From an uncultured Phycisphaerales bacterium (GTDB taxonomy: Bacteria > Planctomycetota > Phycisphaerae > Sedimentisphaerales > Anaerohalosphaeraceae), in NCBI GenBank assembly GCA_937868095.1, contig CALMLO010000066.1, positions 1 to 64,000 of the forward strand: a DNA stretch of 64,000 bases. Reading direction: 5' to 3'. The position numbers and the translations under genes were made by a program. Below, piece after piece: positions 3,926 through 60,930 of this stretch. Below the pieces are notes generated by a model. It searched no databases, had not been told where the DNA came from, and worked only from the letters and a program-made list of their open reading frames with translations. Every line of letters starts with the position of its first letter. The stretch's first letter is position 1.

Positions 3926-3940
3926 AATATACAGTATATT
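3926..3940. repeat. 15-bp AT-rich palindrome
   Basis: AATATAC-A-GTATATT is a perfect inverted repeat with a single central base, 38 bp after the HerA stop. It has no T-tract and is not an obvious terminator. It may be a regulatory site or chance in AT-rich DNA. Confidence 0.3.
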
Positions 3941-3993
3941 GGCAGATAAGTTAATTGAATTTAAATATAGGTAGTATGATGGAAGTTTGAGCG

Positions 3994-4095
3994 TGTCCCC
4001 AAAAACTGGACAGTTGTTTAAGGTGGAATTGTTTTCGGGTATACTGGAGCGAAAAGCCCCGAAAGGAACTCGAAACAATGACACAGAAGCGGCGG
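3994..4095 (+). mobile_element. Truncated left end of an IS3-family element
   Basis: The sequence begins TGTCCCCA, then CTGGACAG, AAGGTGGAA and TTGTTT, matching the inverted right end at 209-259. About 85 bp in, an OrfA-like start ATG at 4079 encodes only MTQKRR before a stop, where IS3 OrfA proteins normally continue with a basic helix-turn-helix. The rest of the element is gone and host sequence (the 3' end of the ACT-domain gene) begins by 4115. Together with 209-259 this brackets the SIR2-HerA genes with IS ends in the same orientation. Confidence 0.7.
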
Positions 4096-4114
4096 TAAAC
4101 GGCCGGCCGGGGGG

Positions 4115-4420
4115 CTATACGCGGTGCATCATTTTGAAGATGTTTTCGTGCTGGAGTGTGATGGTCAGGTCCATTTGACGGGCGATTTTGTTCAGGCGGG
4201 TCTGGAGTTCTTCCAGTTCCACTGCGGCGTCGGTGATGTCAATCGCCATCGTCATCACAAAATACTCCTGCATAATCCGCTGGCTCACATCGATAATATT
4301 GATATTCGCCCTGGCCATCGTGTTAGCAATGCGTGCGATGATTCCGACCTTGTCTTTGCCTGTAACCGTCACAATGCAGATTTGCGAGACCTGCCTTTTT
4401 TGGTTCTTTGCAGCTGCCAT
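4115..4420 (-). CDS. ACT-domain protein (UPF0237 type)
   Basis: This 101-residue protein is a single ACT-domain unit: ICIVTVTGKDKVGIIARIAN, then INIIDVSQRIMQEYFVMTM, ending in HENIFKMMHRV, the normal end of this family. Such small ACT proteins are thought to bind amino acids or other small ligands as regulators; no enzyme domain is present. The start at 4420 has AAGGAG seven bases upstream, so the longer open frame extending to 5518 is not used. The gene is divergent from the DAHP synthase gene with 168 bp between starts, which makes a link to aromatic amino acid control possible. Its 3' end lies about 20 bp from the IS remnant. Confidence 0.85.
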   Translation of the reverse strand: MAAAKNQKRQVSQICIVTVTGKDKVGIIARIANTMARANINIIDVSQRIMQEYFVMTMAIDITDAAVELEELQTRLNKIARQMDLTITLQHENIFKMMHRV

Positions 4421-6807: not shown

Positions 6808-6852
6808 AGTTGAAAGGGTGGGCAGCTGCAAGCCGGAGAGGGCTTGCAAAAG

Positions 6853-6893
6853 CAAGAAAAAACGATCTGTTCCGGGGGGATCGTTTTTTCTTG
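6853..6893. terminator. Strong intrinsic terminator, probably bidirectional
   Basis: A 15-bp perfect stem (6853-6867 with 6879-6893) closes an 11-base loop. The arms carry A6 and T6 tracts, so it can end transcription from either side. It lies 45 bp after the LacI-family gene. Confidence 0.8.
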
Positions 6894-7066
6894 TTTTCCA
6901 ATTCTGAACCAACAAGACCCAGAAACTATACATCCCCCTCTCCATGGGTCTTTCCTTAGGGGCTTCCTTTTGTTTTGCGGGCGTTCTGCCGAACAAAAAT
7001 GCTTGATTTTGAGGCAAACTCAGCCGATATATACTGACTGAACGTTTCTATTTCTGGAGATTGTCG

Positions 7067-7768
7067 ATGACGGAATACAGCAAACTGCCTACAGAAGAAC
7101 CATGGCGCATCTTTCGGATTATGGCCGAATTTGTGGAAGGGTTTGAGGAGCTTGCGAATATAGGACCTGCCGTATCTGTGTTCGGTTCGGCTCGTGAAAA
7201 ACCCGGCAGTCACTATTACCAATTGGCGGAAGAGACGGCGTACCTTGTGGGTAAGGCGGGCTTTGCTGTAATGACAGGCGGGGGCGGGGGTATTATGGAG
7301 GCCGCCAATAAAGGTGCTCGGCGGGCGGGCGTCAAAAGCATCGGCTTGAATATTGAGCTGCCCCATGAACAAGTTCCCAATCCGTACCAGACTCTTTCTC
7401 TGCATTTCCGATATTTCTTTTGCCGAAAGGTGATGTTCGTCAAGTATGCGCATGGGTTCATTGTGATGCCCGGGGGCTACGGCACACTCGATGAATTTTC
7501 TGAGGCCCTTCTGCTTATTCAGACTCTCAAACAGGCCTACTTTCCCGTGGTGTGCATGGGCAGTGAATTCTGGAAAGGGCTGGTGGATTGGCTCAAGAAA
7601 GAGGTGCAGGAAAGTCATCAATACATCGACCCGGAGGATTTGAATGTCTTTACTGTTTGCGATGAGCCGCAGAAGGCCGCAGACATCATCCGGGAATTTC
7701 ATCAGACCAACGGGCGCGGGGGCTATCGTCAGCCGCCGGGTATCCGGAAATGGACGGACGGGCAGTAA
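7067..7768 (+). CDS. LOG-family protein (TIGR00730, lysine-decarboxylase-like fold)
   Basis: The 233-residue protein has the LOG-family signature MPGGYGTLDE and the upstream nucleotide-binding run VMTGGGGGIMEAANKGA. Family members remove ribose 5-phosphate from cytokinin- or purine-type nucleotides; in bacteria the true substrate is often unknown. The start at ATG 7067 is preferred over the TTG two codons earlier because GGAG lies seven bases before it. The gene is convergent with the radical SAM gene, with only 3 bp between their stops. The N-terminal helix (EEPWRIFRIMAEFVEGF) is typical of the bacterial subgroup. Confidence 0.85.
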   Translation: MTEYSKLPTEEPWRIFRIMAEFVEGFEELANIGPAVSVFGSAREKPGSHYYQLAEETAYLVGKAGFAVMTGGGGGIMEAANKGARRAGVKSIGLNIELPHEQVPNPYQTLSLHFRYFFCRKVMFVKYAHGFIVMPGGYGTLDEFSEALLLIQTLKQAYFPVVCMGSEFWKGLVDWLKKEVQESHQYIDPEDLNVFTVCDEPQKAADIIREFHQTNGRGGYRQPPGIRKWTDGQ

Positions 7769-39591: not shown

Positions 39592-40746
39592 TCAGACCGA
39601 CGCCAGCCCGCTAATCATGCCGTGAGCCGCTTCGTTCTTGAGTTCAAGCGTGTACTCGCCGATGAGCTGGCCGCATTCATAATCGCCGCCGCTGGCCAGC
39701 GGTTTGTAATGAAAACTTCTTCCGGCCAGGGGCAGCACGCTGATGCGGCTGGAATCGAGCAGCAGTACGGCATCCTGCGGCATCCATCGTGTGGTCACAA
39801 TGCGGCAGAGGCCGAAATCGCTTTCATAAAAACTCACCTGATCGCGATAGGTCGTATCCGCCGGGCCAAACGAACGCAGCCCCGTCAGAAAGCCGTTGAT
39901 TTTGCGCTTCTGAAAACCGTTGACTGCGATCAAATCAATGGTTGAGGAACTGGTTTCCCAGATTTTGCGAAGGACGTAATTCAGCTTTGTCTCGTCCAGG
40001 GTATCACCCGTCGGAAAGTCCGGCTGACCGACATGGAAGAGATGGGTTTGCAGATGCTGGATGATTCCGCGAAGAGTCCGCCGAACGGTTTCGCTGCCCT
40101 GCGGGGTGGAAGCGGGCCGGCCGCCGTTGATGACGGTGTTCTCCAGGTCGCGCAGCAGTTCCCGAAGACGCATCTGCTTCTGATAATCCATCTCATCGGC
40201 CAGACCGATGGGGCTGGCGGCCAGGTCTGTACCGCTGACCTCAACGGAATGCGTGAAAATCTGCGTCCAGTTGCTTCGGCGCTGCCGGCAGGTAAATCGG
40301 GCCTGCGGGCGTTCGGCGCCTTCCAGTGCCGCATTGCCGAGAATGTTGACGATTTGGCCGGCGGCCGCGGCTTCCGGATTGGTGCCGGCATAGCCGCGAA
40401 TCACGGAAATCGTATTGCCGGCAATCTGCGTAACGAGCATCAGTTCTTTTTTGCCTTCCATCTGAATCTGGTCGCCGACGCGGAAGCGGCCGCCGTCGTT
40501 TACAACCAGTTCCGTATCGCCCAGCGGATCCAGCAGCGACTGAGCCGCCAGAGAGTCCTTATTCGGCAAAAGGGTGTCCTCAAGCCATTCGTGTCGGGTG
40601 CTGGCTGCACTGCGGGACGGATCGCCCAGTGCATCCAGCAGCGGCGTTTCAAACGGTGAAATGATGCCGACCAAATCCGAAACATCTTCCGCCAGTTCCG
40701 GCAGAGCAGGGCCGGCGATGTAGGTTGCTTTTCCGGTAAATGCCAT
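39592..40746 (-). CDS. DUF5309-family major capsid protein
   Basis: The 384-residue protein fits the DUF5309 capsid family (SU10-like): SDLVGIISPFETPLLDALGD near the N terminus, HEWLEDTLLP, FTCRQRRSNWTQIFTHSVEV, the LRDLENTVINGG block and SRISVLPLAGRSFHYKPLA near the end. It forms the shell of a tailed-phage-type head. Length is normal and the frame intact. AAGGAGC lies six bases before the ATG. No maturation protease is adjacent. Confidence 0.82.
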   Translation of the reverse strand: MAFTGKATYIAGPALPELAEDVSDLVGIISPFETPLLDALGDPSRSAASTRHEWLEDTLLPNKDSLAAQSLLDPLGDTELVVNDGGRFRVGDQIQMEGKKELMLVTQIAGNTISVIRGYAGTNPEAAAAGQIVNILGNAALEGAERPQARFTCRQRRSNWTQIFTHSVEVSGTDLAASPIGLADEMDYQKQMRLRELLRDLENTVINGGRPASTPQGSETVRRTLRGIIQHLQTHLFHVGQPDFPTGDTLDETKLNYVLRKIWETSSSTIDLIAVNGFQKRKINGFLTGLRSFGPADTTYRDQVSFYESDFGLCRIVTTRWMPQDAVLLLDSSRISVLPLAGRSFHYKPLASGGDYECGQLIGEYTLELKNEAAHGMISGLASV

Positions 40747-40830
40747 CGTTGAGCTCCTTTCTGTGGGAAAATTTTTCAATCACAATCTTTCAAAATCACA
40801 ATCTTTCAAATTGCCGCCTGTGCATCCTTT

Positions 40831-41334
40831 TTACTTGAACTGTCTGCGCAGGCGCAGGTACTCCTGAACATCATTGAGCCGTCCGGTTTGTTCGGCCTTG
40901 CCGGCGGCCTGTCGAAGGGCGCCGCAGCCGTCGGCGGCGGAACGTACACCGGCGGTGCGGGCAGGTCGGGCTGCCGGAGCAGCGGCAAACAGCCAGCTTT
41001 TTTCTTGCTGAAGCTGAGCGAGCAGGCCCGGAATGTCCGAGGATTTTGCATCGGCCAGGCGGTGGCGAAGCAGCAGGCAGACGGTTTCGCCGTCAACGGC
41101 ACCGGCGGCCTCAGCGGCCTGGCGGAGCTGCTGGTCGAGTTGGAGCCGGCTAATCTGCTCGGCAAGTGTTTGTTTTTGCCCTTCGAGAAGGTCCCGCTCG
41201 GCTTTCAACTGGGCCAGTTCCTTTTCGGCCTGCCGGGCACGCCGGCCAAGCAGAACAGACTCCGGCACCAGCGAATCTGGAGCAGCAGCGGTCTTTTCGA
41301 GAACGTCTTCCGGTTTGCAATCAGGCGGATTCAT
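40831..41334 (-). CDS. Scaffold-like coiled-coil protein
   Basis: The 167-residue protein is mainly a long heptad coil (EKELAQLKAERDLLEGQKQT, then EQISRLQLDQQLRQAA) with a basic tail ending LRRQFK. Coiled, acidic-to-basic proteins between portal and capsid genes are usually scaffolds that guide head assembly. This is inferred from position and shape. AAGGAG precedes the ATG. Confidence 0.55.
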   Translation of the reverse strand: MNPPDCKPEDVLEKTAAAPDSLVPESVLLGRRARQAEKELAQLKAERDLLEGQKQTLAEQISRLQLDQQLRQAAEAAGAVDGETVCLLLRHRLADAKSSDIPGLLAQLQQEKSWLFAAAPAARPARTAGVRSAADGCGALRQAAGKAEQTGRLNDVQEYLRLRRQFK

Positions 41335-41403
41335 CGAAAAACTCCTTTCCAAAAAATTGAAAATTGTTTCTTATGGAGACAACAGATACAGGGCCAGAAA
41401 AAC

Positions 41404-42972
41404 TTATCCATCCGCAGCCAGGGAGCCGGGCACATCGCAGCCGAGTTCCTCCAGAATCCGCTCGGTCGAAACGCCGAGTTCTTTTTTCATCTGGGCTTCC
41501 TGAAGCCGCTCGAGGGGCTCCTCCGGCAGCGGATTGGGGAATCGAATCTCGAGGTCGCGTTCTTCGGGGTCGGTCGGATACAATCCGGTGCGGTGAACGA
41601 TGTCGAGAATCATCGCGGCCAGCTGCCGAAGACCGCGTCCATAGGTATACTGCTTGCGGCTGTTGCGGGTGAGCATTCCCATAAAGGTCATCTTCAGAGC
41701 GACGCCGGAGGTGAGATTTCCAATCTTGTTCTTGAGCACGCCGGCCACCACGGGCGTAACGCCGCTGATTTTGTCCATCGCATCGCGAATGTCGAGGATG
41801 TGCAGATTTTCGCTGGGACAGTCGCCGTCGCCGCCGAATTCCTGAATAGAGGCCTGCTCATTGTCAGTGCACCACATCCGCCCGGGCGAAACGGGCTTGT
41901 CCGGCACGCCTTCGATTCCCTTGGCCAGATACATCCGAAAGGCCTGCATCGTGATTCGATTGGCCCGGTCGGACAGCCGCGTATTCAGTTCGTCCTGCAG
42001 GCCGATGAGCTGCTCGACATCGCTGATGCCTTCATAGGTGTACGGCTGGGGAATATTCTGAATGTGCACAACAGGAATATAGCCGAGCGAGTTGGGGCCT
42101 TCGGCCAGCAGACGGCCCTCTTCATACCGCTGCCAGCAGTGAGGGCCGAGGATTTCGGTAACAGCCGTCTGCCGGCGGCGCGGGCCGGAGCGTCCGCGAA
42201 GCATGCGCTCCAGCAGCGGCCGCTCTTCGACGGTGTCGTTGCGCTCCTGGATAAAATGCTGGATATAGCAGCGGATGCTGCGGTAATCATCTTCTTCCAG
42301 GATCGGCAGAGCCCGAGGGGCTTCGATAAGTTCCAAAGCGATCTCCGATGCCGCAGTGAGGGTGCGCGAGAGGGACTGGGTGGGTGCATCAGAATGCGGA
42401 ACGAAAGGGGCGGATGCGCCCGCTTGCAGGAGTGCGTTCAGCCGATCGCTCAGGCGGATGATGCAGTCGGCAAAACCGTACACCGCCCCGAGCACTGCCA
42501 AATCCTGGAAGAATACAGCGCCCCCGCCGGCCTCGAACACAGCATTTAAGATGGTTTGAATGTCTCTGCGTCGAGACGGCTGAGGGGCTTTGCTGATGAA
42601 AGAAACTCCTTTGCCGAAAAGAAAATCCACCATCGCATGGATGCGCCAGGCGATGTCGTTTTCGATAACAATTTCCTTGCGTCGAATATCGCGGACGTTT
42701 CTGCCGGCCGCAACGCCGTCGAGAGAATCATAAAGCCGGCCGGTGATTCGCGGCGGCAGACCCATTTCCTGGGCCTGAAGATAAGGACGGGCGGCTTCGG
42801 AACAGCGGCCGTCCGGATCCTGAAAGGAAATCGGACCGATCAGCCGATTCTGGTAATACTCCCACAGGCGCTGGAGACGAGAGGACCAGACGGGCCAGTG
42901 GGACTGAATAAGCCACTGAACAAACGATTCCTTCAGCAGGGGGTCCTGAAAAATCCGCAGGTCAAAAGCCAT
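41404..42972 (-). CDS. Phage-type portal protein
   Basis: The 522-residue protein has portal features: a long N-terminal region with LWEYYQNRL, the ALGP-like crown region, QNIPQPYTYEGISDVEQLIG followed by LQDELNTRLSDRANRI (a conserved portal block) and a C-terminal helical part ending near PEEPLERLQEAQMKKEL. It would form the dodecameric DNA-entry ring. The start at 42972 is chosen because GGAG is eight bases upstream; 79 further codons are open upstream but have no ribosome site. Confidence 0.82.
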   Translation of the reverse strand: MAFDLRIFQDPLLKESFVQWLIQSHWPVWSSRLQRLWEYYQNRLIGPISFQDPDGRCSEAARPYLQAQEMGLPPRITGRLYDSLDGVAAGRNVRDIRRKEIVIENDIAWRIHAMVDFLFGKGVSFISKAPQPSRRRDIQTILNAVFEAGGGAVFFQDLAVLGAVYGFADCIIRLSDRLNALLQAGASAPFVPHSDAPTQSLSRTLTAASEIALELIEAPRALPILEEDDYRSIRCYIQHFIQERNDTVEERPLLERMLRGRSGPRRRQTAVTEILGPHCWQRYEEGRLLAEGPNSLGYIPVVHIQNIPQPYTYEGISDVEQLIGLQDELNTRLSDRANRITMQAFRMYLAKGIEGVPDKPVSPGRMWCTDNEQASIQEFGGDGDCPSENLHILDIRDAMDKISGVTPVVAGVLKNKIGNLTSGVALKMTFMGMLTRNSRKQYTYGRGLRQLAAMILDIVHRTGLYPTDPEERDLEIRFPNPLPEEPLERLQEAQMKKELGVSTERILEELGCDVPGSLAADG

Positions 42973-43248
42973 TGCTCTTCTCCGTTCTATTGGGTTTGCT
43001 GTCTTTTTTCTTGCTCTCTGCCCTTGGGGCGAATGTGCACAAATGGTTCGAAAATTCGGAAGGAGTGAGCCGCCGGAAAATCCGTAACCTCTGAGCCGGC
43101 AGGAAGTAAAAAAATTTTCCCAAAATCGGCATCGCTGCATTGGGGCTGCTGCACAAATGGTTCGATTCCGACAAAGGGAATCCGTTTTGGGCTGCAAGGA
43201 ACCGGACAAGAACGCCGGGGCTATGTCAACGCTGACGGAGATTTAGTT
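42973..43248. other. Upstream region of the head operon
   Basis: This stretch holds two copies of a 16-bp direct repeat (listed separately) and the region from which the head operon must be transcribed on the minus strand. No clear -35/-10 pair is visible. The portal reading frame remains open across it, but nothing indicates translation. Confidence 0.4.
43036..43165. repeat. 16-bp direct repeat pair upstream of the portal gene
   Basis: TGCACAAATGGTTCGA occurs exactly at 43036-43051 and 43150-43165, 114 bp apart, 64 to 193 bp upstream of the portal start. Exact 16-mers this close are unlikely by chance and suggest paired operators. Confidence 0.6.
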
Positions 43249-43600: not shown

Positions 43601-44536
43601 ATGATCGGCGGGTCTCCGGCATTTCAATCCGTTCTGGAAACTATTCGTATTGTGGCCGGGCGCACCTGCTGCGTGATTATCCAGGGTCAAACCGGCACCG
43701 GCAAAGAAATGGCGGCGCGCCAAATCCACGCGCTCAGCGAGCGGGCGGATAAGGTGTTTATTCCTGTTGACTGTACAGCCCTGAGCGGTACGCTCTTCGA
43801 AAGCCAACTATTCGGACACGTCAAAGGGGCCTTTACAGGTGCGGTCTGCGATACGCTCGGCTTTTTCCGCGCGGCCGACGGCGGCACAATCTTCCTTGAC
43901 GAAATCGGCGAAATGGAGATGGACCTGCAGGCCAAACTGCTGCGGGTTCTTCAGGACGGACGGGTAACGCCTGTCGGCTCGACCGTCAGTCATCCCGTGG
44001 ATGTGCGGGTCCTGTGCGCCACCCATCGCGACCTCAAACAGATGGTTCAAAAAGGAACCTTTCGGGCTGACCTGTATTTCCGCCTCAACGTGTATAAAAT
44101 CGAACTGCCGCCTCTGCGCGAACGAAAAGGCGACATTCGAAACCTTGCCGAATATTTTCTCCGCAAGCAAGCCGAACTTTATCAGGAACCGCTCCGCCGT
44201 CTGAGTGAGGAAGCAGCGGCCATTCTCGAGGCCTATCACTGGCCGGGCAATGTGCGTGAACTGGCGAATGCGATGGAACACGCCCATATCGCCAGCCGCA
44301 ACCTGATTATCGAGCCGGCGGACCTGCCTATGGACATTCTCGAAGGCGACCTTCTGACCGAGGCCGAGGAGGAAGACGAGTTTTATCCGTTCCGGCAAAT
44401 CCAGAAACGCATGATTGCGCTGGCCCTCAAGAAAAGCCGCGGCCGAAAGATGGCCGCCGCTCGTCTGCTGGGCATCGATCACCGCAAACTTGCCCGGCTG
44501 GTTGAAGAATTTGGTCTGGAAGTCACCTGGAAATAA
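43601..44536 (+). CDS. Sigma-54-dependent activator without a receiver domain
   Basis: The 311-residue protein starts directly at the AAA+ domain (MIGGSPAFQSVLETI). Walker A is GQTGTGKE, the sigma-54 contact motif GAFTGA is intact, and Walker B is GGTIFLDEIGEM. A Fis-type HTH is at the C terminus (KMAAARLLGIDHRKLARLV). It therefore should drive sigma-54 promoters, and lacks the usual N-terminal sensing domain, like PspF. A receiver-like protein is encoded next. Its targets are unknown; the head operon is the nearest divergent unit. Confidence 0.9.
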   Translation: MIGGSPAFQSVLETIRIVAGRTCCVIIQGQTGTGKEMAARQIHALSERADKVFIPVDCTALSGTLFESQLFGHVKGAFTGAVCDTLGFFRAADGGTIFLDEIGEMEMDLQAKLLRVLQDGRVTPVGSTVSHPVDVRVLCATHRDLKQMVQKGTFRADLYFRLNVYKIELPPLRERKGDIRNLAEYFLRKQAELYQEPLRRLSEEAAAILEAYHWPGNVRELANAMEHAHIASRNLIIEPADLPMDILEGDLLTEAEEEDEFYPFRQIQKRMIALALKKSRGRKMAAARLLGIDHRKLARLVEEFGLEVTWK

Positions 44537-44868
44537 TGCCGGCCGTCGTCTGTTTCGGCTCTTCTTTTTCGGCTGAAAGGCCGACTTCTTTTTGCTATCC
44601 TGTGCTTCTTGTCTTCGCTCTCCCTGGGTTATGCTGCCGTTTGGTAAGTCTATTCCAATTCCGCAACTGGCATCTAACCGGCTGCTGGATCTGAACTTAC
44701 ACAGAGCAAACCGCAAAAGCATTCCGAAATCCCCACTTGCCGCCTTCTGCCGTCTGCCGACCCGTCCCCAAAAAATAAATTTATAACTTCCTGCCAACAA
44801 ACGACTAACAGATTTTCCGCCGAGTTTTTATCCGCGCGGCACGGCTGTTGTTATATTCCTTAGCCAGT
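44537..44868. other. 330-bp gap between activator and receiver-like genes
   Basis: It holds a terminator at 44569-44595 and otherwise no supported feature. No promoter of clear quality was found before the receiver-like gene. Confidence 0.4.
44569..44595 (+). terminator. Intrinsic terminator after the sigma-54 activator gene
   Basis: TCGGC (44569-44573) and GCCGA (44580-44584) form a short stem followed by CTTCTTTTT. It is 32 bp after the activator stop. Confidence 0.5.
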
Positions 44869-45318
44869 ATGCAGAATAAAAACCAAAACAGAAACTTAGA
44901 CAGTCAGAAAGCAAACATGTGCCGAGTGTATTCAACAATCTTGATGGTCGAAACGGAAGATAAGGCCCGCGGCCTGCAGGAGCTGCCGGTGCGTCTGCTT
45001 CGAATGAACACAGGCCGCCAGGCGGTGCAATGCCTTCGCCAGGAGAACGTGGATACAGTCATCAGCCGGTGGGACCTGGTGGATATGCCCGATGGACTGC
45101 TGCTGAAACGCATTCTGGCGGCTCGTCCGAAGATGCCGACCATCGCCTTGATTCAGGCCGGCAACCAGCGGCAGGAGATTCTGGCCCGTTCGCTGGGCGT
45201 GACCGCCATCGTCAGTGAAGATATTGACAGTTCGTTTTTTCGCCGTCTGATTTGCGAGCTTCTCCACATTGAAGATTTTGCAGCGATGACGATGCCCGCT
45301 ATGACAGGTGCGGATTAA
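44869..45318 (+). CDS. Receiver-like (response-regulator) domain protein
   Basis: The 149-residue protein has the beta-alpha pattern of a receiver: STILMVETEDKARGL, then VDTVISRWDLVDMPDGLLLK with an Asp at the usual phosphoacceptor place, MPTIALIQAG and VTAIVSEDIDSSFF. The acidic pair and Lys of a canonical receiver are not clear, so phosphorylation is uncertain. There is no output domain. It may supply the missing input to the activator upstream. No good Shine-Dalgarno marks the start; ATG 44917 is an alternative. Confidence 0.6.
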   Translation: MQNKNQNRNLDSQKANMCRVYSTILMVETEDKARGLQELPVRLLRMNTGRQAVQCLRQENVDTVISRWDLVDMPDGLLLKRILAARPKMPTIALIQAGNQRQEILARSLGVTAIVSEDIDSSFFRRLICELLHIEDFAAMTMPAMTGAD

Positions 45319-45503
45319 AAAGTGAATATCGTAAAACCCATGATGGGCTGCAAACTACTTCCCATCTTTCTCCTCCACCCTGGGTATGACGGCCGGTGAT
45401 CGGACAGCCATACCCAGATGAAGAAAACCGCGGCAAACGCCGCGAAACGATAGAAATGCTCTTTTACAGTAAAAGCAAAGAAGCTGAAAAACTTCTTCAT
45501 CAT
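45315..45503 (-). CDS. Small hydrophobic protein in tandem repeat, 62 residues
   Basis: The protein reads MMKKFFSFFAFTVKEHFYRF and then a membrane helix AAFAAVFFIWVWLSD, with a different C-terminal end from its neighbour because the repeat stops. TAAGGAG directly precedes the ATG. Its start overlaps the stop of the upstream copy (ATGA), so translation is probably coupled. No family is recognised; such tandem tiny membrane proteins can be type I toxins. Confidence 0.5.
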   Translation of the reverse strand: MMKKFFSFFAFTVKEHFYRFAAFAAVFFIWVWLSDHRPSYPGWRRKMGSSLQPIMGFTIFTF

Positions 45504-45709
45504 CTCCTTACCCGCAGAGCTGGGTATGACGGCCGGTGATCGGACAGCCATACCCAGACGAAGAAAACCGCGGCAAACGCCGCGAAATGATAGAAATGCT
45601 CTTTTACAGTAAAAGCAAAGAAGCTGAAAAACTTCTTCATCATCTCCTTACCCGCAGAGCTGGGTATGACGGCCGGTGATCGGGCAATCATACCCAGACG
45701 AAGAAAACC
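45380..45709. repeat. Tandem 140-bp direct repeats (two full copies, one partial)
   Basis: Copies start at 45380, 45520 and 45660; the third covers about 50 bp. Each starts with CTGGGTATG and has CATACCCAG about 37 bases on, forming a 9-bp stem. Full copies include a ribosome site and a small minus-strand ORF. The copies are nearly identical. Confidence 0.8.
45500..45643 (-). CDS. Small hydrophobic protein in tandem repeat, 47 residues
   Basis: The protein starts MMKKFFSFFAFTVKEHFYHF, followed by the helix AAFAAVFFVWVWLSD and a basic tail HRPSYPALRVRR. TAAGGAG precedes the ATG. The stop TGA overlaps the ATG of the next copy. In the partial third copy the matching Trp codon is TGA, so an older third ORF has decayed. 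Confidence 0.5.
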   Translation of the reverse strand: MMKKFFSFFAFTVKEHFYHFAAFAAVFFVWVWLSDHRPSYPALRVRR

Positions 45710-45841: not shown

Positions 45842-46117
45842 GGGGCCGGCCGAAGATCACTGGCCGATTTTGGGCCGGCCCCGCTTATGAAAATCCGACA
45901 TCCAAAAATGAAACTCGGGAACAGGAACAGAACCGACAACCTTCAGCCGCCGGAGAAAGGGAAAGGCGTCAGAAATCGTACACAAAATCGGCCAACCAGT
46001 GAAACAAACGGAGTACGTACAAAACAAAATGGATTAGCCAGTGATCAAAATGTGCTGTACAAAAACATAAAAGCAAAACTTGTGGTTTCGGAGGAAAGAA
46101 TTATGAAACGCTTAATG
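45842..46117 (+). repeat. PEP-CTERM array repeat R1 (partial: hairpin, leader and start)
   Basis: From the GC-rich hairpin (45842-45851 with 45873-45882) through a leader of about 220 bp to the first codons of gene A. It is almost identical to the same part of R2 and R3. The part coding for a PEP-CTERM tail, present in R2 and R3, is missing upstream. Confidence 0.85.
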
Positions 46118-46798
46118 CTTATAGGGTTGTGCCTTTTTGCGGTAGCGGCGAGCTCTACCGCACTGGGTTCAGTGGAACTATTCTGGACCGGCGGAGGTGA
46201 GGCGTCGTGGGTAGAGGATTCAACCGCGCCGAGCAGTGACGGGGTGGTGGCGAAGCTGTATTGGCCAGCCCCATACCGAAACGAAAACAATGAGTATATC
46301 GTCCCAAATGCGGGAGTCCGCATCGATATTCCAGACGTGGCTATCAAAGACATAGAGAGTTGGAAGTATTATACTAAGGCACCGGTGGACTATGCCACAA
46401 ACCTCACATTCTACGTTGACCGGGAAGGTGTCGAGAACTATCCCGGCAGGGATTATGACATGACACTCTCGGCATGGCCGGATAATGATAATTACGGGGA
46501 CCAATGGCTGACCGTCGATCAGGCCACCATTGCCAACTACAACGGGTCGTATGTTGTCTGGGCCTATGGGGCAAGTTCGCCGACATGGAAATTCTCCTGG
46601 AGCACCGTCCAGAGCAGCTATGGAGACGGGGTAGTCATACGAGTTGCATTAGATAAGGGCGTAATCGGCACCAATCAGACGATAACTACCTATGTCGACG
46701 ACTTCTCTATGAACGGCGTACTGTATCAGTTAGTTCCTGAGCCGGCGACGATGGTTCTGCTGGGTCTGGGCGGGCTGTTTCTGCGGAAACGCAGATAG
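46103..46798 (+). CDS. PEP-CTERM surface protein A
   Basis: The 231-residue protein has a signal peptide (MKRLMLIGLCLFAVAASSTA) and a PEP-CTERM sorting signal: PEPATMVLLGLGG, a helix, and an arginine end. PEP-CTERM proteins are recognised by an exosortase, which is not in the window, and placed on the surface. The centre (WTGGGEASWVEDS, YYTKAPVDYATNLTFYVDRE) is beta-rich and of unknown function. The start at 46103 follows GGAGGAAAG. The open frame extends 72 codons further back, but that region is the shared leader. Its centre has no visible likeness to B or C. Confidence 0.82.
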   Translation: MKRLMLIGLCLFAVAASSTALGSVELFWTGGGEASWVEDSTAPSSDGVVAKLYWPAPYRNENNEYIVPNAGVRIDIPDVAIKDIESWKYYTKAPVDYATNLTFYVDREGVENYPGRDYDMTLSAWPDNDNYGDQWLTVDQATIANYNGSYVVWAYGASSPTWKFSWSTVQSSYGDGVVIRVALDKGVIGTNQTITTYVDDFSMNGVLYQLVPEPATMVLLGLGGLFLRKRR

Positions 46799-47097
46799 TC
46801 AATAATCATCCGGGGCCGGCCGAAGATCACTGGCCGATTTTGGGCCGGCCCCGCTTATGAAAATCCGACATCCAAAAATGAAACTCGGGAACAGGAACAG
46901 AACCGACAACCTTCAGCCGCCGGAGAAAGGGAAAGGCGTCAGAAATCGTACACAAAATCGGCCAACCAGTGAAACAAACGGAGTACGTACAAAACAAATT
47001 GGATTAACCAGTGATCAAAATGTGCTGTACAAAAACATAAAAGTAAAACTTTTGGTTTCGGAGGAAAGAATTATGAACCGCTTAATGACAATTTGTT
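46733..47097 (+). repeat. PEP-CTERM array repeat R2 (complete, about 365 bp)
   Basis: It includes the C-terminal PEP-CTERM codons and stop of gene A, the hairpin (46812-46821 with 46843-46852), the leader and the first codons of gene B. It matches R3 almost base for base. Confidence 0.85.
46812..46852 (+). terminator. GC-rich hairpin after PEP-CTERM gene A
   Basis: GGGGCCGGCC (46812-46821) pairs with GGCCGGCCCC (46843-46852). No T-tract follows, so it may protect mRNA ends or end transcription with a factor. Confidence 0.5.
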
Positions 47098-47741
47098 TTG
47101 CGGTAATACTGCTGTTGGTTACTATTCCTGCCCAATCTATGCTGCTATCCGAGCTGTTAGTCGAAGGTGCCACTATCACCAGCGGAGACAAACTGTTTTA
47201 CGGTTTTGTTAACTACGATTCGTCGGCATCGGCAAAAGGAGAATCCGTTGCGGGCGTTGATCCGGCGGATATTATCGTTTCCGCCTACCAAAATCCAACG
47301 AATGGGGAGTATGGGCTAAAGTTCCAATCAAGCAAAATCGTCATTACTGAGTCTCCCTCAGCATTAGCCCTGAGTTTCGATTACCTTGTAAGATCGACTC
47401 TCCCGAACTATTTGATCAGCGACAATACTCTCACCATGGAAGGCACGATCAGCGCTGGGAACGTTGGCGTCAACGAATCCGCCACGAATCCCGAGACCGA
47501 TTCTCAGTTGGCTTATAAATACACCTTACTGCAGGGGATGTATTATTCAAAGCTTTTTGACCACCAGACCTATACAACCCCTGCTTCAGTTGTTTATGTG
47601 TCCACGTCAATCTCGCTGAACAAAGCTTCCGGCGGTCCAAATCAGTTGACTGCGTTCACACAGACCTTCTCTCAGGTTCCCGAGCCGGCGACGATGGTTC
47701 TGCTGGGTCTGGGCGGGCTGTTTCTGCGGAAATGCAGATAG
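47073..47741 (+). CDS. PEP-CTERM surface protein B
   Basis: The 222-residue protein has a signal peptide (MNRLMTICFAVILLLVTIPA) and the same PEPATMVLLGLGG tail with one changed basic residue. The centre (VEGATITSGDKLFYGFVNYD, then IVITESPSALALSFDYLV) differs fully from A and C. Its leader is a near copy of the leader of A. Same exosortase-dependent surface fate is inferred. Confidence 0.82.
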   Translation: MNRLMTICFAVILLLVTIPAQSMLLSELLVEGATITSGDKLFYGFVNYDSSASAKGESVAGVDPADIIVSAYQNPTNGEYGLKFQSSKIVITESPSALALSFDYLVRSTLPNYLISDNTLTMEGTISAGNVGVNESATNPETDSQLAYKYTLLQGMYYSKLFDHQTYTTPASVVYVSTSISLNKASGGPNQLTAFTQTFSQVPEPATMVLLGLGGLFLRKCR

Positions 47742-48040
47742 TCAATAATTATCTGGGGCCGGCCGAAGATCACCGGCCGATTTTGGGCCGGCCCCGCTTA
47801 TAAAAATCCAACATCCAAAAATGAAACTCGGGAACAGGAACAGAACCGACAACCTTCAGCCGCCGGAGAAAGGGAAAGGCGTCAGAAATCGTACACAAAA
47901 TCGGCCAACCAGTGAAACAAACGGAGTACGTACAAAACAAAATGGATTAGCCAGTGATCAAAATGTGCTGTACAAAAACATAAAAGCAAAACTTGTGGTT
48001 TCGGAGGAAAGAATTATGAAACGCTTAATGACAATTTGTT
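47676..48040 (+). repeat. PEP-CTERM array repeat R3 (complete, about 365 bp)
   Basis: It includes the PEP-CTERM end of gene B, the hairpin (47755-47764 with 47786-47795), the leader and the first codons of gene C. In this copy the ATG that opens the upstream frame in A and B is lost. Confidence 0.85.
47755..47795 (+). terminator. GC-rich hairpin after PEP-CTERM gene B
   Basis: The 10-bp arms GGGGCCGGCC and GGCCGGCCCC are the same as after gene A. Inside, one base differs from the other copies (CACCGG for CACTGG). Confidence 0.5.
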
Positions 48041-48780
48041 TAGTAGTTATATTTGCTGCCAATAGTATAGCTGCTACCGATTTTTTTGCAAGCACCAACG
48101 AACTCGGCTATCAAGGCACTATATGGAATATAACGGACAACACAGGGCCATGGACAACCTCGACACCTCGAAATGCCAACCTGTTTACGGCGATGAACAC
48201 ACCCTACATGGATCCTGGCTATGAAGGCAATTATAACGAATTGCTAAGCAGCTGGTGGGAACACAGTCCCAGCAACCAAAATGATTCCTTTCTGCAATTG
48301 GCAGAGGAGGTGACCACCCCTAGCGTAATCAGCGCATCGGCAATCTGGGATGAAACAAAAACAATCTTTACCGTGAGAGTAAGCGGTGCCAACGCTCCCT
48401 ACCCATGGAGCCGGATGTGGCAGCCAGATAACGGAGTGGCTTGGGGGGTAACGTTCACCGAGTATAGCTACTCCTTCGAGGCCACTTTCTCTCAGGCCGC
48501 AGCTATTGATGAGTACGGCTGGCTTGCAAACACTGTATTGCCCGATACCATCATCGGCACATTTACCGGAGAATTTGTGGTCACATATGACATCGAGAAG
48601 AATCCCATTACAGACGGCGACACCTACGGCTTCAACATCAACTTCTCGAAGGAATGGTTTACCACAGACGGCGGATCTTGCGGAGAAATTACGCCTGCCA
48701 GTTATTTTGCGGTTGTTCCTGAGCCGGCGACGATGGTTCTGCTGGGTCTGGGCGGGCTGTTTCTGCGGAAACGCAGATAG
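48016..48780 (+). CDS. PEP-CTERM surface protein C
   Basis: The 254-residue protein has a signal peptide (MKRLMTICLVVIFAANSIAA) and the PEPATMVLLGLGG tail. The centre, with NELGYQGTIWNITDNTGPW and SYSFEATFSQAAAIDEYG, is unlike those of A and B. The leader again is a near copy. Surface location by exosortase is inferred. Confidence 0.82.
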   Translation: MKRLMTICLVVIFAANSIAATDFFASTNELGYQGTIWNITDNTGPWTTSTPRNANLFTAMNTPYMDPGYEGNYNELLSSWWEHSPSNQNDSFLQLAEEVTTPSVISASAIWDETKTIFTVRVSGANAPYPWSRMWQPDNGVAWGVTFTEYSYSFEATFSQAAAIDEYGWLANTVLPDTIIGTFTGEFVVTYDIEKNPITDGDTYGFNINFSKEWFTTDGGSCGEITPASYFAVVPEPATMVLLGLGGLFLRKRR

Positions 48781-48833
48781 TCAATAATCATCCGGGGCCG
48801 GCCGAAGATCACTGGCCGATTTTGGGCCGGCCC
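48715..48833 (+). repeat. PEP-CTERM array repeat R4 (partial: tail codons and hairpin)
   Basis: It holds the PEP-CTERM codons of gene C and the hairpin (48794-48803 with 48825-48833), then stops; the leader of gene D is different apart from the short GGAGGAAAG block. Confidence 0.8.
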
Positions 48834-48933: not shown

Positions 48934-49596
48934 ATGAAAAAAGTTAGTCTAAAGAGATGTGCAGCCGTATGTGCGGCGATTGTGCTGATGGCCGGGGTTC
49001 TGCAAGCCGGCCCGATTGCGGGTATCTTCGATTCACGAACAGATTCGACAATTATCGCAGGTATTCCGTGGGCGGAAGGCGCCCTGGTTTGTTCCTTTTG
49101 GGAAGATTGCACTGCTGTGATTGGATTGTTCGATGGCTGGGGCTCTAAGGACGGAGTCAGCCAGTGGTATATCCAAGCTTGGAACCCCGATTGGGCCGGG
49201 TGGGCCGGCTATATCCAACTCAACTGGAACGGTCCATGGTTTGGAGACAACCCCGAAGAAGTCGGGGGCTATGAAGGCCAAATTACAGAATGGACATTGA
49301 GCGAAACCTACACAGGAGAATTTCTCGACCTTGTGCTGACCGGTACTGCTGTTCTTGATAAAAAACACTTGATGCCGTGGTATGACGGGCAGTATGAGCA
49401 GTATGAAGATATGTCCCCGGTTCCGGTAACCTTCGAAATGGGTTTTAGCGGCATCCCGGAGCAGGGTTCCGCAGAAACCTATAATGAAGGAACAATATTT
49501 GGCACACCGAGTTATGTCGTATTTACCATCCCCGAGCCGGCGACGATGGGTCTGCTGGGTCTGGGCGGGATTCTGCTGCGGAAACGCACAAGGTAA
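48934..49596 (+). CDS. PEP-CTERM surface protein D
   Basis: The 220-residue protein has a signal peptide (MKKVSLKRCAAVCAAIVLMA) and a tail PEPATMGLLGLGG. It is an older relative outside the repeat array: its leader and tail differ. The centre is tryptophan-rich (SQWYIQAWNPDWAGWAGYIQ). TTTCGGAGGAAAG before the start resembles the other three leaders. Confidence 0.82.
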   Translation: MKKVSLKRCAAVCAAIVLMAGVLQAGPIAGIFDSRTDSTIIAGIPWAEGALVCSFWEDCTAVIGLFDGWGSKDGVSQWYIQAWNPDWAGWAGYIQLNWNGPWFGDNPEEVGGYEGQITEWTLSETYTGEFLDLVLTGTAVLDKKHLMPWYDGQYEQYEDMSPVPVTFEMGFSGIPEQGSAETYNEGTIFGTPSYVVFTIPEPATMGLLGLGGILLRKRTR

Positions 49597-49999: not shown

Positions 50000-50509
50000 A
50001 TGACCTCTTCAATCTGTCCGGCAGGCGAAGAGACGAAAACGCGCCGCTCTTCCTGCGAAGGGAAATATCTGACCTTTGCCATCGGAAATGAGGAGTTTGG
50101 GGTCGAAATCCTTAAGGTTCGGGAGATTATCGGGTATGTCCCTGTGACGCCTGTGCCGAAATCCCCGGCCTATCTGAAAGGGGTAATCAATCTGCGCGGG
50201 CAGGTGATTCCGGTAATCGACCTTCGGCTCAAATTCGGCCTGGCGGAAAAAGAAATTACCGACCAGACGTGCATTGTGATTATCGAGACCCGCACGCAGA
50301 CCCAGACCGTGCTGACGGGGCTGATTGTGGATCGCGTCTCCGAAGTTCTCAACATCGACGCCGAACAGATTGAACCGGCCCCGTCACTGGGAACCTCCGT
50401 TGACACCTCTTTTATTCTTGGAATGGCCAAAGCCGGCAATCAAGTGAAAATCCTGCTGGAAATTGACGCGGTTGTTCACCAGGAAACCGAAGAAGAAATC
50501 ACCTGTTAA
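50000..50509 (+). CDS. cheW: Chemotaxis coupling protein CheW
   Basis: The 169-residue protein is a CheW domain: YLTFAIGNEEFGVEILKVRE, then YLKGVINLRGQVIPVIDLR, TGLIVDRVSEVL and IDTSFILGMAK-type ending. CheW links receptors to CheA. No CheA gene is in the window. GGAG lies before the ATG. The MCP gene follows 24 bp downstream, so they form an operon. Confidence 0.93.
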   Translation: MTSSICPAGEETKTRRSSCEGKYLTFAIGNEEFGVEILKVREIIGYVPVTPVPKSPAYLKGVINLRGQVIPVIDLRLKFGLAEKEITDQTCIVIIETRTQTQTVLTGLIVDRVSEVLNIDAEQIEPAPSLGTSVDTSFILGMAKAGNQVKILLEIDAVVHQETEEEITC

Positions 50510-50533: not shown

Positions 50534-52534
50534 ATGCTGAAGAATATGAAACTTTCGGTCAAATTGTTTTTGGGATTCGGCTGTCTGGTTGTTATCACCG
50601 CCCTTTTGGGGCTGATCAGCTGGCGAGGAATGACCTCCGTAAAAGCCCTCTCCGAGCTGGCACTGAGGGGACAGCAGGCCGTCAGCCATCTGAACGACTG
50701 CGCCACGCTGCGGCGGGATTTTATGATTAACGGATTTGCCGTCATCGGCAATGACAACAAAAACGCCGCTGAAAAATGGCACGAATCGCACGACAAAATG
50801 ACAACGATATTAAAAGAACTCAACGGCGATTCCAACCTGGGCAGCGAGGAGAAGCAGATTGTATCCAAAATGCTTGACTTAAGCACCGACTATCGAAACT
50901 GTTTTGACCAGGGGACGACCGCCCAGAAGAAAAAAGAGGAGGCCGTCGGGATTTGGCGAAGCCTCGGTGTGGAGATTACAAACAATCTCGATGAAGCCAT
51001 GGAAAAGACAATCGACCCCGAATTCCAAAAGGCCATCGAGGCAAACAATACATCGCAGGCTGCTTACTGGGCTCAATTTGATGAAATGGTGAATGAAAAC
51101 ATCGCCCAAAATTTTCTTCTGCTGCGGGTCAGCGGCGTCTATCTGATTGCCAATGAAACCGAGAAGGAATGGGAAGGATTCCAGCAGCAATTGCAGACCC
51201 TGCGTAACGGACTGGCCAAATGGACACAAATGACCGCATCCGAACCGAAACTGCAGGGGTATGCCTCCAAACTGACGGATTATATCAATCAATATGCCCA
51301 GGCCGGCGAGCAATTCCATCAGAGTCTTCTGGAGCAGCACAATGTCTTTTCGAAAATGGTGGCCACAGCCAACAGTATCGTGCAGATGATGGGCGAACTG
51401 GACGGCCGTCTGCAGAACTCTCTGAAATCCACCATTTATAGCGTCAATCTTACCCTTATTCTTGCCTCCGTGGGCAGCATTGTAATCGGTGTTGTGCTGG
51501 CGTTCGTCATTACCCGCAGCATTGTCAAGCCGATTCATCAAATCATCTCCGATTTGACCACGGGTGCTGAACAGGTCTCCAGCGCTTCCGGTCAGGTTTC
51601 CAGTGCCTCCCAGTCGCTGGCCGAAGGTGCCACCGAACAGGCCGCCGGCCTCGAAGAAACCTCCTCCAGTCTGGAGGAAATGTCCTCCATGACCAAGCAG
51701 AACGCCGACAACGCCCAGCAGGCCAATCTCCTGGCCGCTCAGGCCAAATCCGCCGCTCACGACGGAGCTGACTCTATGAAGCGGATGACCGGCGCCATCG
51801 ACGACATCCAGAAAAGCGCCGACGAAACCTCCAAAATTATCAAGGTCATCGACGAAATCGCCTTCCAGACCAACCTGCTGGCCCTCAACGCCGCCGTCGA
51901 GGCCGCCCGGGCCGGTGAGGCCGGAAAGGGATTTGCCGTCGTCGCCGAAGAAGTTCGGAATCTGGCGATGCGTTCTGCCGAAGCCGCCAAGAACACCGCT
52001 TCGCTCATCGAAGGGTCTGTCAAAAACGCCAAAAACGGCGTCGAAATCTCCACCGAAGTGAGCAAAAAACTGGAAGAAATCGTCAGCCACATTGCCAAAA
52101 CCACCGACCTGGTGGCCGAAATTGCCGCCGCCAGCACCGAACAGGCGCAGGGCATCGAGCAGATTAACACGGCTGTCTCCCAGATGGACAAGGTGACCCA
52201 GCAGAATGCGGCTGCCGCCGAAGAGTCGGCCAGTGCCGCCGAGGAACTGTCCGCTCAGGCCCAGCAGATGCACACGGTCGTCGAGAAACTCGTAACCATT
52301 GTGGACGGCAGCCGAGGGCAATTTCAGACTGCTTCCTCCCCTGCCCTGACTTCCAGACCTGCTCATCAGACGAAGCGATTGTCGCTGTCCGACCAGACCT
52401 ACCACCACATCGCCGAAGGAAAATCCCAGCCGAAGTCCAAGGCCGCTGCCGCCAGGAAGCCGGCCGGCGAACCAGCCAAGGACCCGGCGAAAGTCATCCC
52501 CCTCGACGAGGATTTCAAAGAATTTAACAGCTGA
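50534..52534 (+). CDS. Methyl-accepting chemotaxis protein 1
   Basis: The 666-residue receptor has an N-terminal membrane segment, an outer helical sensor region of about 260 residues (four-helix-bundle type), a second membrane segment ([20 protein letters not shown]), only a short HAMP-like start ([10 protein letters not shown]) and then the signalling domain with [20 protein letters not shown] at the hairpin tip. A flexible tail ends in DEDFKEF, perhaps a tether. The signalling DNA is almost identical to that of MCP 2. AAGGAG is upstream. Confidence 0.93.
51583..52270 (+). repeat. Near-identical MCP signalling-domain DNA, copy 1
   Basis: The 688 bp match 54695-55382 with only two differences seen by eye (one in a GCT/GCA codon, one CAG/CAA). 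Both are silent. The outer domains around them are not alike. Confidence 0.85.
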
Positions 52535-53825: not shown

Positions 53826-55631
53826 ATGGTCATTCAAAAAAAAATCGGAATCCTGGCGGTGGTTCCCCTGGCGGCCCTGATTGTGCTGACGGCGATTACC
53901 TGGCATGCCCTGCGGCAGAATGCGGCGCGATTTGACGAAACCGTCAATCAATCCTTCGGCACGCTGATTGATGAAGAAATCAACCCGCTGATTTACCAGA
54001 CGCTCCTGCCGCTGATTAACGAAGATGTGCAGAATCTTCAGAAGATGCAGGACAGCATCGCCCTGATGCTCGAGGCCGATCGCGATGTGCATCAGGCCTT
54101 AATCGCGGAAAAAATGGCCCTAGCTGCTTCAGAACCGGAAGAACTGAAGGCCGCCGATACCGCCAACATTCAAAATATTGAGCAGGCGCAGAGCCGGATG
54201 GAAAAGGCCTCGGCTTCTTTTCGCTCGGAGCAGACCCGGCGGCTTTACAATGAATTTCTGACGGAATTTGAAACCTGGAAAGGCAAAACCCGCAAGGTCC
54301 TCGAACAAGCGGCTTCTCCGGATAAATTGATTTGGGCCAGAAAATCCAGCAACGGCGGCAGCGCTGCCCAGAGTTTTGACACCATGCGGGGGAAAATCGA
54401 TGCCCTCCAGCAGGCCCTCGAAGCGGACATCGCGGCAACCCTGCAGGCCGTAGAAGAAAAGAAGCAGATTGCCAACGCCAAGGGGCAGATTGTCAGCGAC
54501 AAAAAAGAAGAAACAATGAAGGTGGCCGAAGAGGTTCAGCAGTCCATCGAACAGACCATTACGGTCTTTCTGGCTGTGAGTATTGCCGCGGCGCTGACCG
54601 TCAGTGTGCTCACCTTCGGAACCAGCCGTTCCATTCTTAAACCGCTCAAGCGGGTCATCCACCTGCTCAGCGAGGCCTCTGAACAGATTGAAAACGCTTC
54701 CGGTCAGGTTTCCAGTGCCTCCCAGTCGCTGGCCGAAGGTGCCACCGAACAGGCCGCCGGCCTCGAAGAAACCTCCTCCAGTCTGGAGGAAATGTCCTCC
54801 ATGACCAAGCAGAACGCCGACAACGCCCAGCAGGCCAATCTCCTGGCCGCTCAGGCCAAATCCGCCGCTCACGACGGAGCTGACTCTATGAAGCGGATGA
54901 CCGGCGCCATCGACGACATCCAGAAAAGCGCCGACGAAACCTCCAAAATTATCAAGGTCATCGACGAAATCGCCTTCCAGACCAACCTGCTGGCCCTCAA
55001 CGCCGCCGTCGAGGCCGCCCGGGCCGGTGAGGCCGGAAAGGGATTTGCCGTCGTCGCCGAAGAAGTTCGGAATCTGGCGATGCGTTCTGCCGAAGCCGCC
55101 AAGAACACCGCTTCGCTCATCGAAGGGTCTGTCAAAAACGCCAAAAACGGCGTCGAAATCTCCACCGAAGTGAGCAAAAAACTGGAAGAAATCGTCAGCC
55201 ACATTGCCAAAACCACCGACCTGGTGGCCGAAATTGCCGCCGCCAGCACCGAACAGGCGCAGGGCATCGAGCAGATTAACACGGCTGTCTCCCAGATGGA
55301 CAAGGTGACCCAGCAGAATGCGGCAGCCGCCGAAGAGTCGGCCAGTGCCGCCGAGGAACTGTCCGCTCAGGCCCAGCAAATGAAAACGGCGGTTGTTCAG
55401 GAACTGCTCACGATGATTGGCGGCCTGATGGGAAAAACAAAATCGTCCTCGTCTTCACCGGCTGCCTCGCTGAAAACCAGCGATCACATCCTGCACCACA
55501 TCGCCGAAGGCAAATCTCAGCCGAAGCCCAAGGCCGCACCTGCTGCCGCCAGGAAACCGGCGAAGGAACCAGCCAAAGACCCGGCGAAAGTCATCCCCTT
55601 CGACGAGGATTTCAAAGACTTCAACGCCTGA
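53826..55631 (+). CDS. Methyl-accepting chemotaxis protein 2
   Basis: The 601-residue receptor has one N-terminal helix, an outer domain of about 220 residues, a second membrane segment ([19 protein letters not shown]), and directly after a short linker the signalling domain. From ASGQVSSAS onwards to AQQM the protein is the same as MCP 1. The tail ends in DEDFKDF. AAGGAAG precedes the start. The shorter outer domain suggests another ligand or an indirect partner. Confidence 0.93.
54695..55382 (+). repeat. Near-identical MCP signalling-domain DNA, copy 2
   Basis: It is the partner of 51583-52270. The sharp edge at both ends points to gene conversion or a recent partial duplication. Confidence 0.85.
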
Positions 55632-59398: not shown

Positions 59399-59535
59399 GA
59401 ATCTGTTAAAAATCCATTTGCATCAGCCAACAAGGAGGCACTATGATAGGGCCAGTTGAAACAAAGTAAGAAGGCCAAACTCGAAACCTTTTAACACCTT
59501 TGGTTTTTTATAATAACGATGAAAGGGAGCAGTCT

Positions 59536-60930
59536 ATGGAGGCCACTTTCACGGATGAAATCAGCGCGATCCAAGAGCATCTGGCTCGAGAGATCGGCGT
59601 TCAGCAATATCAAATCTGGTTCCGAAATGCAACGCAGCTGACACTCCGCAAAGATTGTCTGGAAATAGCCGTGGCCAATCCATTCATCTCACAATGGATT
59701 CAGAGCCATTTTGAAAAGCCGCTGCAAAAAGCGATGGAGGCCGCTCTGCATCAGAGGCATCCCATCCACTACCGCACGGACCGCTCGCTAAGTCCGGCCG
59801 GCTCCAAAACAAATCCGAACCCAGCCGAGAGAATCCCCGCCGGCCGCAGTAAGCCCATCCGCTCCGCTGCCGGCAAAACCAGCGAACCGCTGAAGATGAG
59901 TTTGGACACGTTTATCGTAGGGGCCAAAAACGAACTGGCCTATAACGCCGCCAAAACCGTCGCCCAGCAGGAAAAAAGCCCCTTCAATCCCCTGTTTTAT
60001 CACGGCGGGTATGGAGTCGGCAAAACCCATCTCCTTCAGGGCATCTGCAACGAAATCGCAAAAAACAGACCAAACGCCAAATGGCTTTATACCTCCGCCG
60101 AGGATTTTGCCAATCAGTATGTGCTGGCTCTGAAAACACGCAGACTCGATGCCTTCCGAAACCGGTTCCGCAATCTGGATATTCTGGCTATTGATGACAT
60201 TCATTTTCTCTCGAACAAAACCGCCATGCAGGAGGAGTTTCTGCATACCTTCAACAGCATTGACCTGGCCGGAAAGCAGATTGTGCTGGCCTCGGATGCC
60301 CATCCAAAGGAAATCAGCGCTTTATGTGAGAAACTGGTCAATCGCTTCGTTTCCGGAATGGTGATTCGCATCGACCCGCCGGATTTCGATACGCGGTGTC
60401 GGATTCTGACGTGTCGGGCAAAGAAAATGAAACAGCCGCTTCGCAAGGAAGTGGTGGAATATATCGCCGGCTCCATCAGTTCGAGCGTGCGGGAGCTGGA
60501 AGGGGCCCTCTTTAAGGTGATGGCCTACAGTGCCCTTACCCAAAAGCCCATTTCGCTGGAGGAGGCCCAGGAGGTGCTCTCGGAACACATCGCCCGCACG
60601 GACCCGGTGGTGCATCATTCCGACATTACGGGGGCGGTCGCGGAGTTCTTTCATCTGAGCCCGGCGGATCTTTACTCCGCCCGAAAAGAACGAACCGTTT
60701 CGCTGGCCCGCTCGCTGGCGATGTACCTGACGCGCCGGTTTACCAAAATGTCCTTTCCGGAAATCGGCAAGGTCATGGGCAACAAAAACCACGCCACGGT
60801 CATCCTGGCCTGCCGCAAAATTGAAAAGGCCCTTGAGCAGAATACCCCGCTTCGCTGGCGCAGCCCGGCCGGTTTCCGCTCGGTGCCGGCCAAGGAACTC
60901 CTCGACCGGCTGATGGAAAAAATCTCGTGA
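59536..60930 (+). CDS. dnaA: Chromosomal replication initiator DnaA
   Basis: The 464-residue protein has domain I (residues 1-80), a basic linker, the AAA+ domain with Walker A GGYGVGKTH (157-165) and Walker B ILAIDDIHFL, the arginine-finger region and a C-terminal DNA-binding domain with YSARKERTVSLARSLAMYLT and GNKNHATVILACRKI. It opens the origin at the DnaA boxes just upstream. GGGAG lies seven bases before the start at 59536. Confidence 0.96.
   Translation: MEATFTDEISAIQEHLAREIGVQQYQIWFRNATQLTLRKDCLEIAVANPFISQWIQSHFEKPLQKAMEAALHQRHPIHYRTDRSLSPAGSKTNPNPAERIPAGRSKPIRSAAGKTSEPLKMSLDTFIVGAKNELAYNAAKTVAQQEKSPFNPLFYHGGYGVGKTHLLQGICNEIAKNRPNAKWLYTSAEDFANQYVLALKTRRLDAFRNRFRNLDILAIDDIHFLSNKTAMQEEFLHTFNSIDLAGKQIVLASDAHPKEISALCEKLVNRFVSGMVIRIDPPDFDTRCRILTCRAKKMKQPLRKEVVEYIAGSISSSVRELEGALFKVMAYSALTQKPISLEEAQEVLSEHIARTDPVVHHSDITGAVAEFFHLSPADLYSARKERTVSLARSLAMYLTRRFTKMSFPEIGKVMGNKNHATVILACRKIEKALEQNTPLRWRSPAGFRSVPAKELLDRLMEKIS

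Follow-up and report, generated by a model that had tools for sequence, protein, structure and literature searches.

Sets of PEP-CTERM proteins, in the PEP-CTERM/exosortase (EpsH) system, are lineage-specific and fast-changing and mostly lack homology beyond the tail (Haft et al., 2006, PMC1569441). They are among the fastest-evolving sets of their genomes, mostly contain no recognisable domains, and their turnover between close relatives has been attributed to duplication and loss (PMC1569441). The locus that we describe here, in a 64-kb stretch of planctomycete DNA (the window), shares with these sets the putative signal peptide, unrelated middle part (the payload) and PEP anchor of each gene, long upstream regions, anchors that are more alike within than between species, and a very fast turnover. 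It differs from them in two respects: most of the genes described earlier are single-gene operons, whereas here tandem units carry an almost identical leader and hairpin, and turnover was ascribed there to duplication and loss, whereas here payload and anchor appear to have separate histories. A PEP-anchored ice-binding protein of Nostoc sp. HG1, with a payload probably acquired from a planctomycete, is a comparable case of a PEP-CTERM protein with a probably acquired payload, but it is a single gene, and the accessible part of that publication describes no array, shared leader or anchor swap (PMC7783341). In the literature within our reach, from which subscription journals were mostly missing, we came across no account of payloads being exchanged beneath a resident anchor, and no paper that connects PEP-CTERM either with gene conversion and recombination or with the planctomycete order Sedimentisphaerales.

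In the vls system of Borrelia and the pilE/pilS system of Neisseria, homologous variant silent cassettes feed one expression site. These systems resemble the present locus in having a variable middle between conserved ends, which recombination alters there and may alter here, but the array contains neither silent homologous cassettes nor a single expression site: its payloads share no relationship, and each unit comes with a leader, ribosome-binding site (RBS), start and stop of its own. In polymorphic toxins, among them Rhs and CdiA, exchangeable C-terminal domains beside a conserved part are altered by recombination, with horizontal supply. The likeness lies in unrelated, horizontally supplied domains that are, or here may be, exchanged next to a conserved part; the difference is that here the conserved part flanks the payload on both sides, and neither an immunity gene nor a toxin domain was found at the array. 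Integron cassettes, finally, are mostly promoterless and are moved at attC sites by an integrase. They too form a row of unrelated open reading frames with similar non-coding repeats between them, but the units described here carry leader, signal and anchor, their joints lie in coding sequence, and payload homology stops at the PEP codons and the signal peptide rather than at a palindromic site. No tyrosine-recombinase integrase was found among the neighbours of the array examined with Pfam.

Anatomy of the array

The array is a tandem row of four PEP-CTERM genes, A-D, with three centres (46118-46732, 47098-47675 and 48041-48714) bounded by the block copies R1-R4. Each block runs from the V-P-E-P codons of one gene through its stop codon, a 41-nt hairpin and a leader of ~220 nt to the ATG and 5-9 further codons of the next gene, and the copies are 97-100% identical to one another. 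R2 (46733-47097, 365 bp) comprises the anchor codons of A, the hairpin at 46812-46852, the leader and the first codons of B, and R3 (47676-48040, 365 bp, 97% identical to R2) joins B to C in the same way, with its hairpin at 47755-47795. The two outer copies are partial: R1 (45842-46117, 276 bp, 98% identical to R2) holds the hairpin, leader and first codons of A, and R4 (48715-48833, 119 bp, 100% identical to R2) the anchor codons of C and the hairpin. Because the 5' end of R1 (45842) and the 3' end of R4 (48833) fall exactly at the hairpin, the repeated unit is hairpin plus leader plus gene, flanked by extra shared sequence consisting of the anchor codons of the preceding gene. Blocks and genes all lie on the plus strand, with A at 46103-46798 (231 aa), B at 47073-47741 (222 aa), C at 48016-48780 (254 aa) and D at 48934-49596 (220 aa). 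The R4 hairpin stands in front of D, but the leader of D is its own, and its anchor is 87% identical to those of A-C. A preliminary description of the window had delimited these repeats, from sorting codons through a GC hairpin and a ~220-bp leader to the next start codons, and its coordinates proved accurate. It had also raised the question of further copies: in this genome (3.04 Mb, 99.6% complete) the full block was found at this locus only, other block matches being merely 44-66 nt of anchor codons (83-91% identity) in PEP-CTERM genes.

Membership of the PEP-CTERM class was judged by a C-terminal PEP motif, hydrophobic stretch and basic end that match the curated models of Pfam and NCBIfam. 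All four genes exceed the cut-offs of PF07589 (24.5-26.4 bits against 20.7, with 24.5 bits for A and D and 26.4 for B) and of TIGR02595 (18.7-22.3 bits against 16), and no other domain was recognised in them with either collection. Their N-termini are hydrophobic, as read from the translations alone. The genome as a whole contains 45 PEP-CTERM matches, 35 of them over the cut-off, and on this count it likely encodes an exosortase.

The centres had been described as having no visible likeness, and an all-against-all comparison bears this out. Neither blastp nor blastn gave a match between any two of them, and hhalign of family profiles returned a probability of at most 1% for every pair among A-D and at most 2.6% across 11 payload families. 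Positive controls within families scored 68-100%, except for one distant B pair at 2.4%, so that very remote homology among the centres could have been missed. AlphaFold models were too poor for fold comparison (pLDDT 34.5 for A and 47.0 for C), and a Foldseek search of the PDB with the C model, at that pLDDT, gave no match at E <= 0.001. Relatives of the payloads exist elsewhere: A has a relative at 41% identity in one genome (G064), B has relatives at ~30% in three (G111, G134 and G057), and those of C are described below.

The hairpin has a 7-nt loop, ACUGGCC. In three congeners (G001, G002 and G005) it is followed by a T run, as in an intrinsic terminator, and this T run has been lost in the window. 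A motif further down the leader (AAAATCGGCC..CAGTGA or GCCAGTGATC) pairs with the hairpin core in the ten canonical-core units outside genome G025, a pairing that is not seen in G025; units within one genome are not independent in this count. Pairing as good occurred in at most 2 of 200 shuffled leaders, and no compensatory changes were seen. Hairpin and motif could form an attenuator, or the motif could be a protein site; we regard this as a lead only. A sigma-54 promoter in the leader is not claimed, since the sole recurrent GG-N10-GC falls inside the hairpin, and comparison with Rfam gave merely mir-3926 matches far below the gathering score. The leaders in the window are open in frame with the genes and might be read as N-terminal extensions; as an RBS precedes each ATG and the frame is closed in the G002 leaders of E and F, we take the open frame to be chance.

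The island site in congeneric genomes

We compared the genome of the window (G000) with five congeners (G001-G005), one genome per species; these are draft assemblies, in which short repeats carry a risk of mis-assembly. In the window, 6.8 kb separate a phage-type portal gene (41404-43209, minus strand, PF05133) from a CheW gene (50000-50509, plus strand, PF01584). This island begins with a sigma-54 activator of the AAA+ type with a Fis-type HTH (43601-44536, plus strand, PF00158 and PF02954), homologues of which head the arrays of G001 (88%) and G002 (84%). A receiver-like protein follows (44848-45318, plus strand; 72% to G001 and 64% to G002), with a weak PF00072 match below the cut-off, and then tandem 140-bp repeats with a hairpin (45380-45709) and the array. 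The minus strand of the 140-bp repeats encodes short peptides that end in ...WVWL(S/P)DHRPSYPA, one with a hydrophobic stretch; similar elements sit upstream of the arrays in G001 and G002, and the repeat core, GGCCGGTGATC, is complementary to the core of the array hairpin.

The site is empty in three of the five congeners: in G003, in G004 and on contig C43 of G002, the portal gene adjoins CheW with a gap of at most a few hundred bases. The other two carry different payloads there. In G001 the activator and the receiver-like gene accompany an array that carries E, F and an incomplete third payload and within which the contig terminates, and G005 has an array with payloads X and Y and a different right neighbour. 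The island of G002, with payloads E, F, G and H, is located elsewhere, beside another chemotaxis cluster. Since A, B and C were all missing from the five congeners, an unchanged payload order, which the preliminary description had named as a sign of simple old tandem duplication, does not recur among them; the comparison with close relatives suggested in the preliminary description thus yielded other payloads or none.

Several further features are recorded here in their own right. On contig C8 of G005, a second sigma-54 activator (56-60%) is the neighbour of two other PEP-CTERM genes, which points to an association of activators of this kind with PEP-CTERM clusters. The 64-kb window contains no tRNA and thus no tRNA integration site. 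The gene for DnaA (59500-60930) follows ~10 kb past the array on its downstream side, which may place the island close to the replication origin. Two adjoining chemoreceptor genes (50534-52534 and 53826-55631) have a nearly identical signalling half and different sensor halves, and form another conserved-plus-variable pair beside the array. On the other side, at 39592-43209 on the minus strand, genes for a major capsid protein (SU10 type), a scaffold and the portal are clustered, with no terminase seen beside them. Of the 40 genomes from across the order that were searched, 31 have the capsid gene, almost always in single copy; its identity declines with kinship from 86 to 57% and is only ~30% to known phages. 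These genes resemble a head module that has been domesticated and that may belong to a gene-transfer agent.

Histories of payloads and flanks

The clearest case is gene C. Its payload is 82% identical to that of a protein in G035, a member of another family (80% over the whole protein), although the DnaA proteins of the two genomes are only 55% identical. In simple global alignments, the two C genes are 62% identical in their anchor DNA and 41% in the upstream/leader DNA, which is the level of unrelated PEP-CTERM genes, whereas the anchor and leader of C match those of its unrelated neighbours A and B at 97-100%. Further relatives occur in G090, from the same order (58%), and in a Deltaproteobacteria metagenome-assembled genome (MAG; 60%), and their tails differ again: that in G090 is another 26-residue tail and that of the Deltaproteobacteria MAG is VPEPATMLLIGAGLVGLAGLRRRRR. 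These comparisons indicate a horizontal origin of payload C, and no relatives of it were found in viral contigs or plasmids. Payload F, present in 7 of 148 genomes searched, gives a similar picture. It occupies the second island slot in both G001 and G002, yet the two copies belong to different clades, that of G001 with G035 and G008 and that of G002 with G021, G033 and G067, the branches separating the groups being supported at 94 and 98%.

The flanks within the array tell a different story from the centres. Up to position 355 the blocks show 12 substitutions, every one of which lies in one or the other flank of B; the flanks of A and C have none (runs test for clustering, p = 0.0025). The private substitutions of R3 are all on the B side, and the flanks of A and C are identical around unrelated payloads.

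Switches of partner were also seen outside the array. On contig C61 of the same genome (15000-20500), three adjacent genes combine payloads and anchors in different ways: a single payload occurs with two different anchors, and a single anchor with two unrelated payloads. Genes 1 and 2 share a 637-bp stretch that is 96% alike (~350 bp identical) but have different signal peptides and anchors; gene 1 shares its anchor and 3' end with the unrelated gene 3 (86% of 153 bp). The partner of likeness switches at CCGGAACCGGC, that is, at the PEP codons, and the array-type hairpin is absent from this cluster. In G064, gene 9 is of the payload type of genes 3 and 5 (44-50%) but matches gene 6 in its anchor (93%) and in its downstream DNA (98%). 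Over the collected arrays, anchor likeness was 0.753 within an array against 0.672 between arrays, and for homologous payloads in different arrays it was 0.652, the background level; the shuffle test on these values serves as a guide only, the genes being not fully independent. The PEP anchor is also tied to the host exosortase, and selection could therefore account for part of the likeness of anchors within a genome.

A PEP-CTERM array in G042 follows another pattern, in which whole genes recur in two similar sets (e.g., 3376-4320 and 6683-7618), as in block duplication of whole units and not payload exchange.

Mechanism, alternatives and significance

We interpret the locus as a modular PEP-CTERM array in a variable island, in which payloads may be exchanged by recombination in shared flanks, with horizontal supply and homogenised flanks, and assign this reading a probability of roughly three in four. 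The unit would consist of hairpin, ~220-nt leader, putative signal peptide, payload and PEP anchor. New payload reading frames would arrive from other strains, families or even another phylum and would be inserted, or replace a resident payload, by recombination, with the 5' join in the leader, the RBS or the first/signal-peptide codons and the 3' join in the conserved PEP codons or in the anchor or hairpin just behind. Since a payload entering in this way would come to lie between a retained leader and a retained anchor, a single step would place a foreign extracellular domain under local leader and local sorting signal. The flanks of neighbouring units would be kept alike by gene conversion. 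Exchange is inferred here from comparison between species, each represented by one genome; the agent would presumably be RecA-type homologous recombination, the proteins are presumably displayed at the surface, and selection for diversity, or some other benefit, may be involved. No donor copy of the A-C payloads is left in this genome, and no recombinase or competence gene was linked to the locus. The preliminary description had envisaged recombination that swaps payloads while promoter, signal and anchor stay: payload C, payload F, the substitutions in the block flanks, the C61 cluster and G064 now lend it comparative support as regards leader and anchor, whereas its suggestions of a promoter in the leader, of a storage role and of active diversification find no support in these comparisons. 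A wider version, to which we attach little probability, is an order-wide pool of extracellular payload reading frames plugged into resident leader-anchor sockets, perhaps with the phage-head module acting as a gene-transfer agent and with hairpin and leader as a shared attenuator that gives any payload the same control.

In G000, G001 and G005, leaders and anchors resemble those of their own genome more than those of other genomes, and the substitutions among R1-R3 are mosaic. Both observations would also be expected if old, unrelated PEP-CTERM neighbours had merely had their flanks homogenised by gene conversion, with no exchange of payloads. Homogenisation probably happens as well, yet it is insufficient alone: payloads are patchy and partly horizontal, the island site is empty in three congeners, and C61 holds one payload under two anchors, which makes concerted evolution by itself unlikely. 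If a single gene had been duplicated in tandem long ago and the centres of its copies had then diverged rapidly, the tandem layout and the signal peptide, anchor and leader common to all genes would be accounted for. Such a history, however, would have left a non-coding leader 97-100% identical while the centres lost all profile similarity, and the centres each have separate relatives elsewhere, in the case of C at 80% in another family. We therefore consider such an origin very improbable.

Equally hard to sustain are two readings that take the repeats themselves as the cause. The strong hairpin conserved in each unit invites comparison with the recombination site of an integron-like, site-specific cassette system; this is highly improbable, since Pfam recognised neither an integrase nor a transposase in the neighbours examined (portal, sigma-54 activator, receiver-like protein and CheW) and the joints lie at the PEP codons and signal peptide, away from the hairpin, which the C61 cluster lacks altogether. 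Mis-joining or collapse during assembly is a concern with repeats of 276-365 bp, which are difficult for short reads, and the G001 contig does end in its array, but the copies differ by 2-3% in a structured way and the same architecture is found independently in G001, G002, G005, G008, G035 and G064, so that an artefact has very little to recommend it.

If, as our preferred reading of payload exchange holds, payloads swap under a resident anchor, PEP-CTERM proteins that look like orphans would become traceable through the relatives of their payloads, and trees of anchors would be records of recombination and not of gene descent. PEP-CTERM turnover would gain a testable mechanism, namely crossover at the PEP codons, and the swapping of payloads between genes and species, with the local tail kept, would explain the fast change of the PEP-CTERM class.
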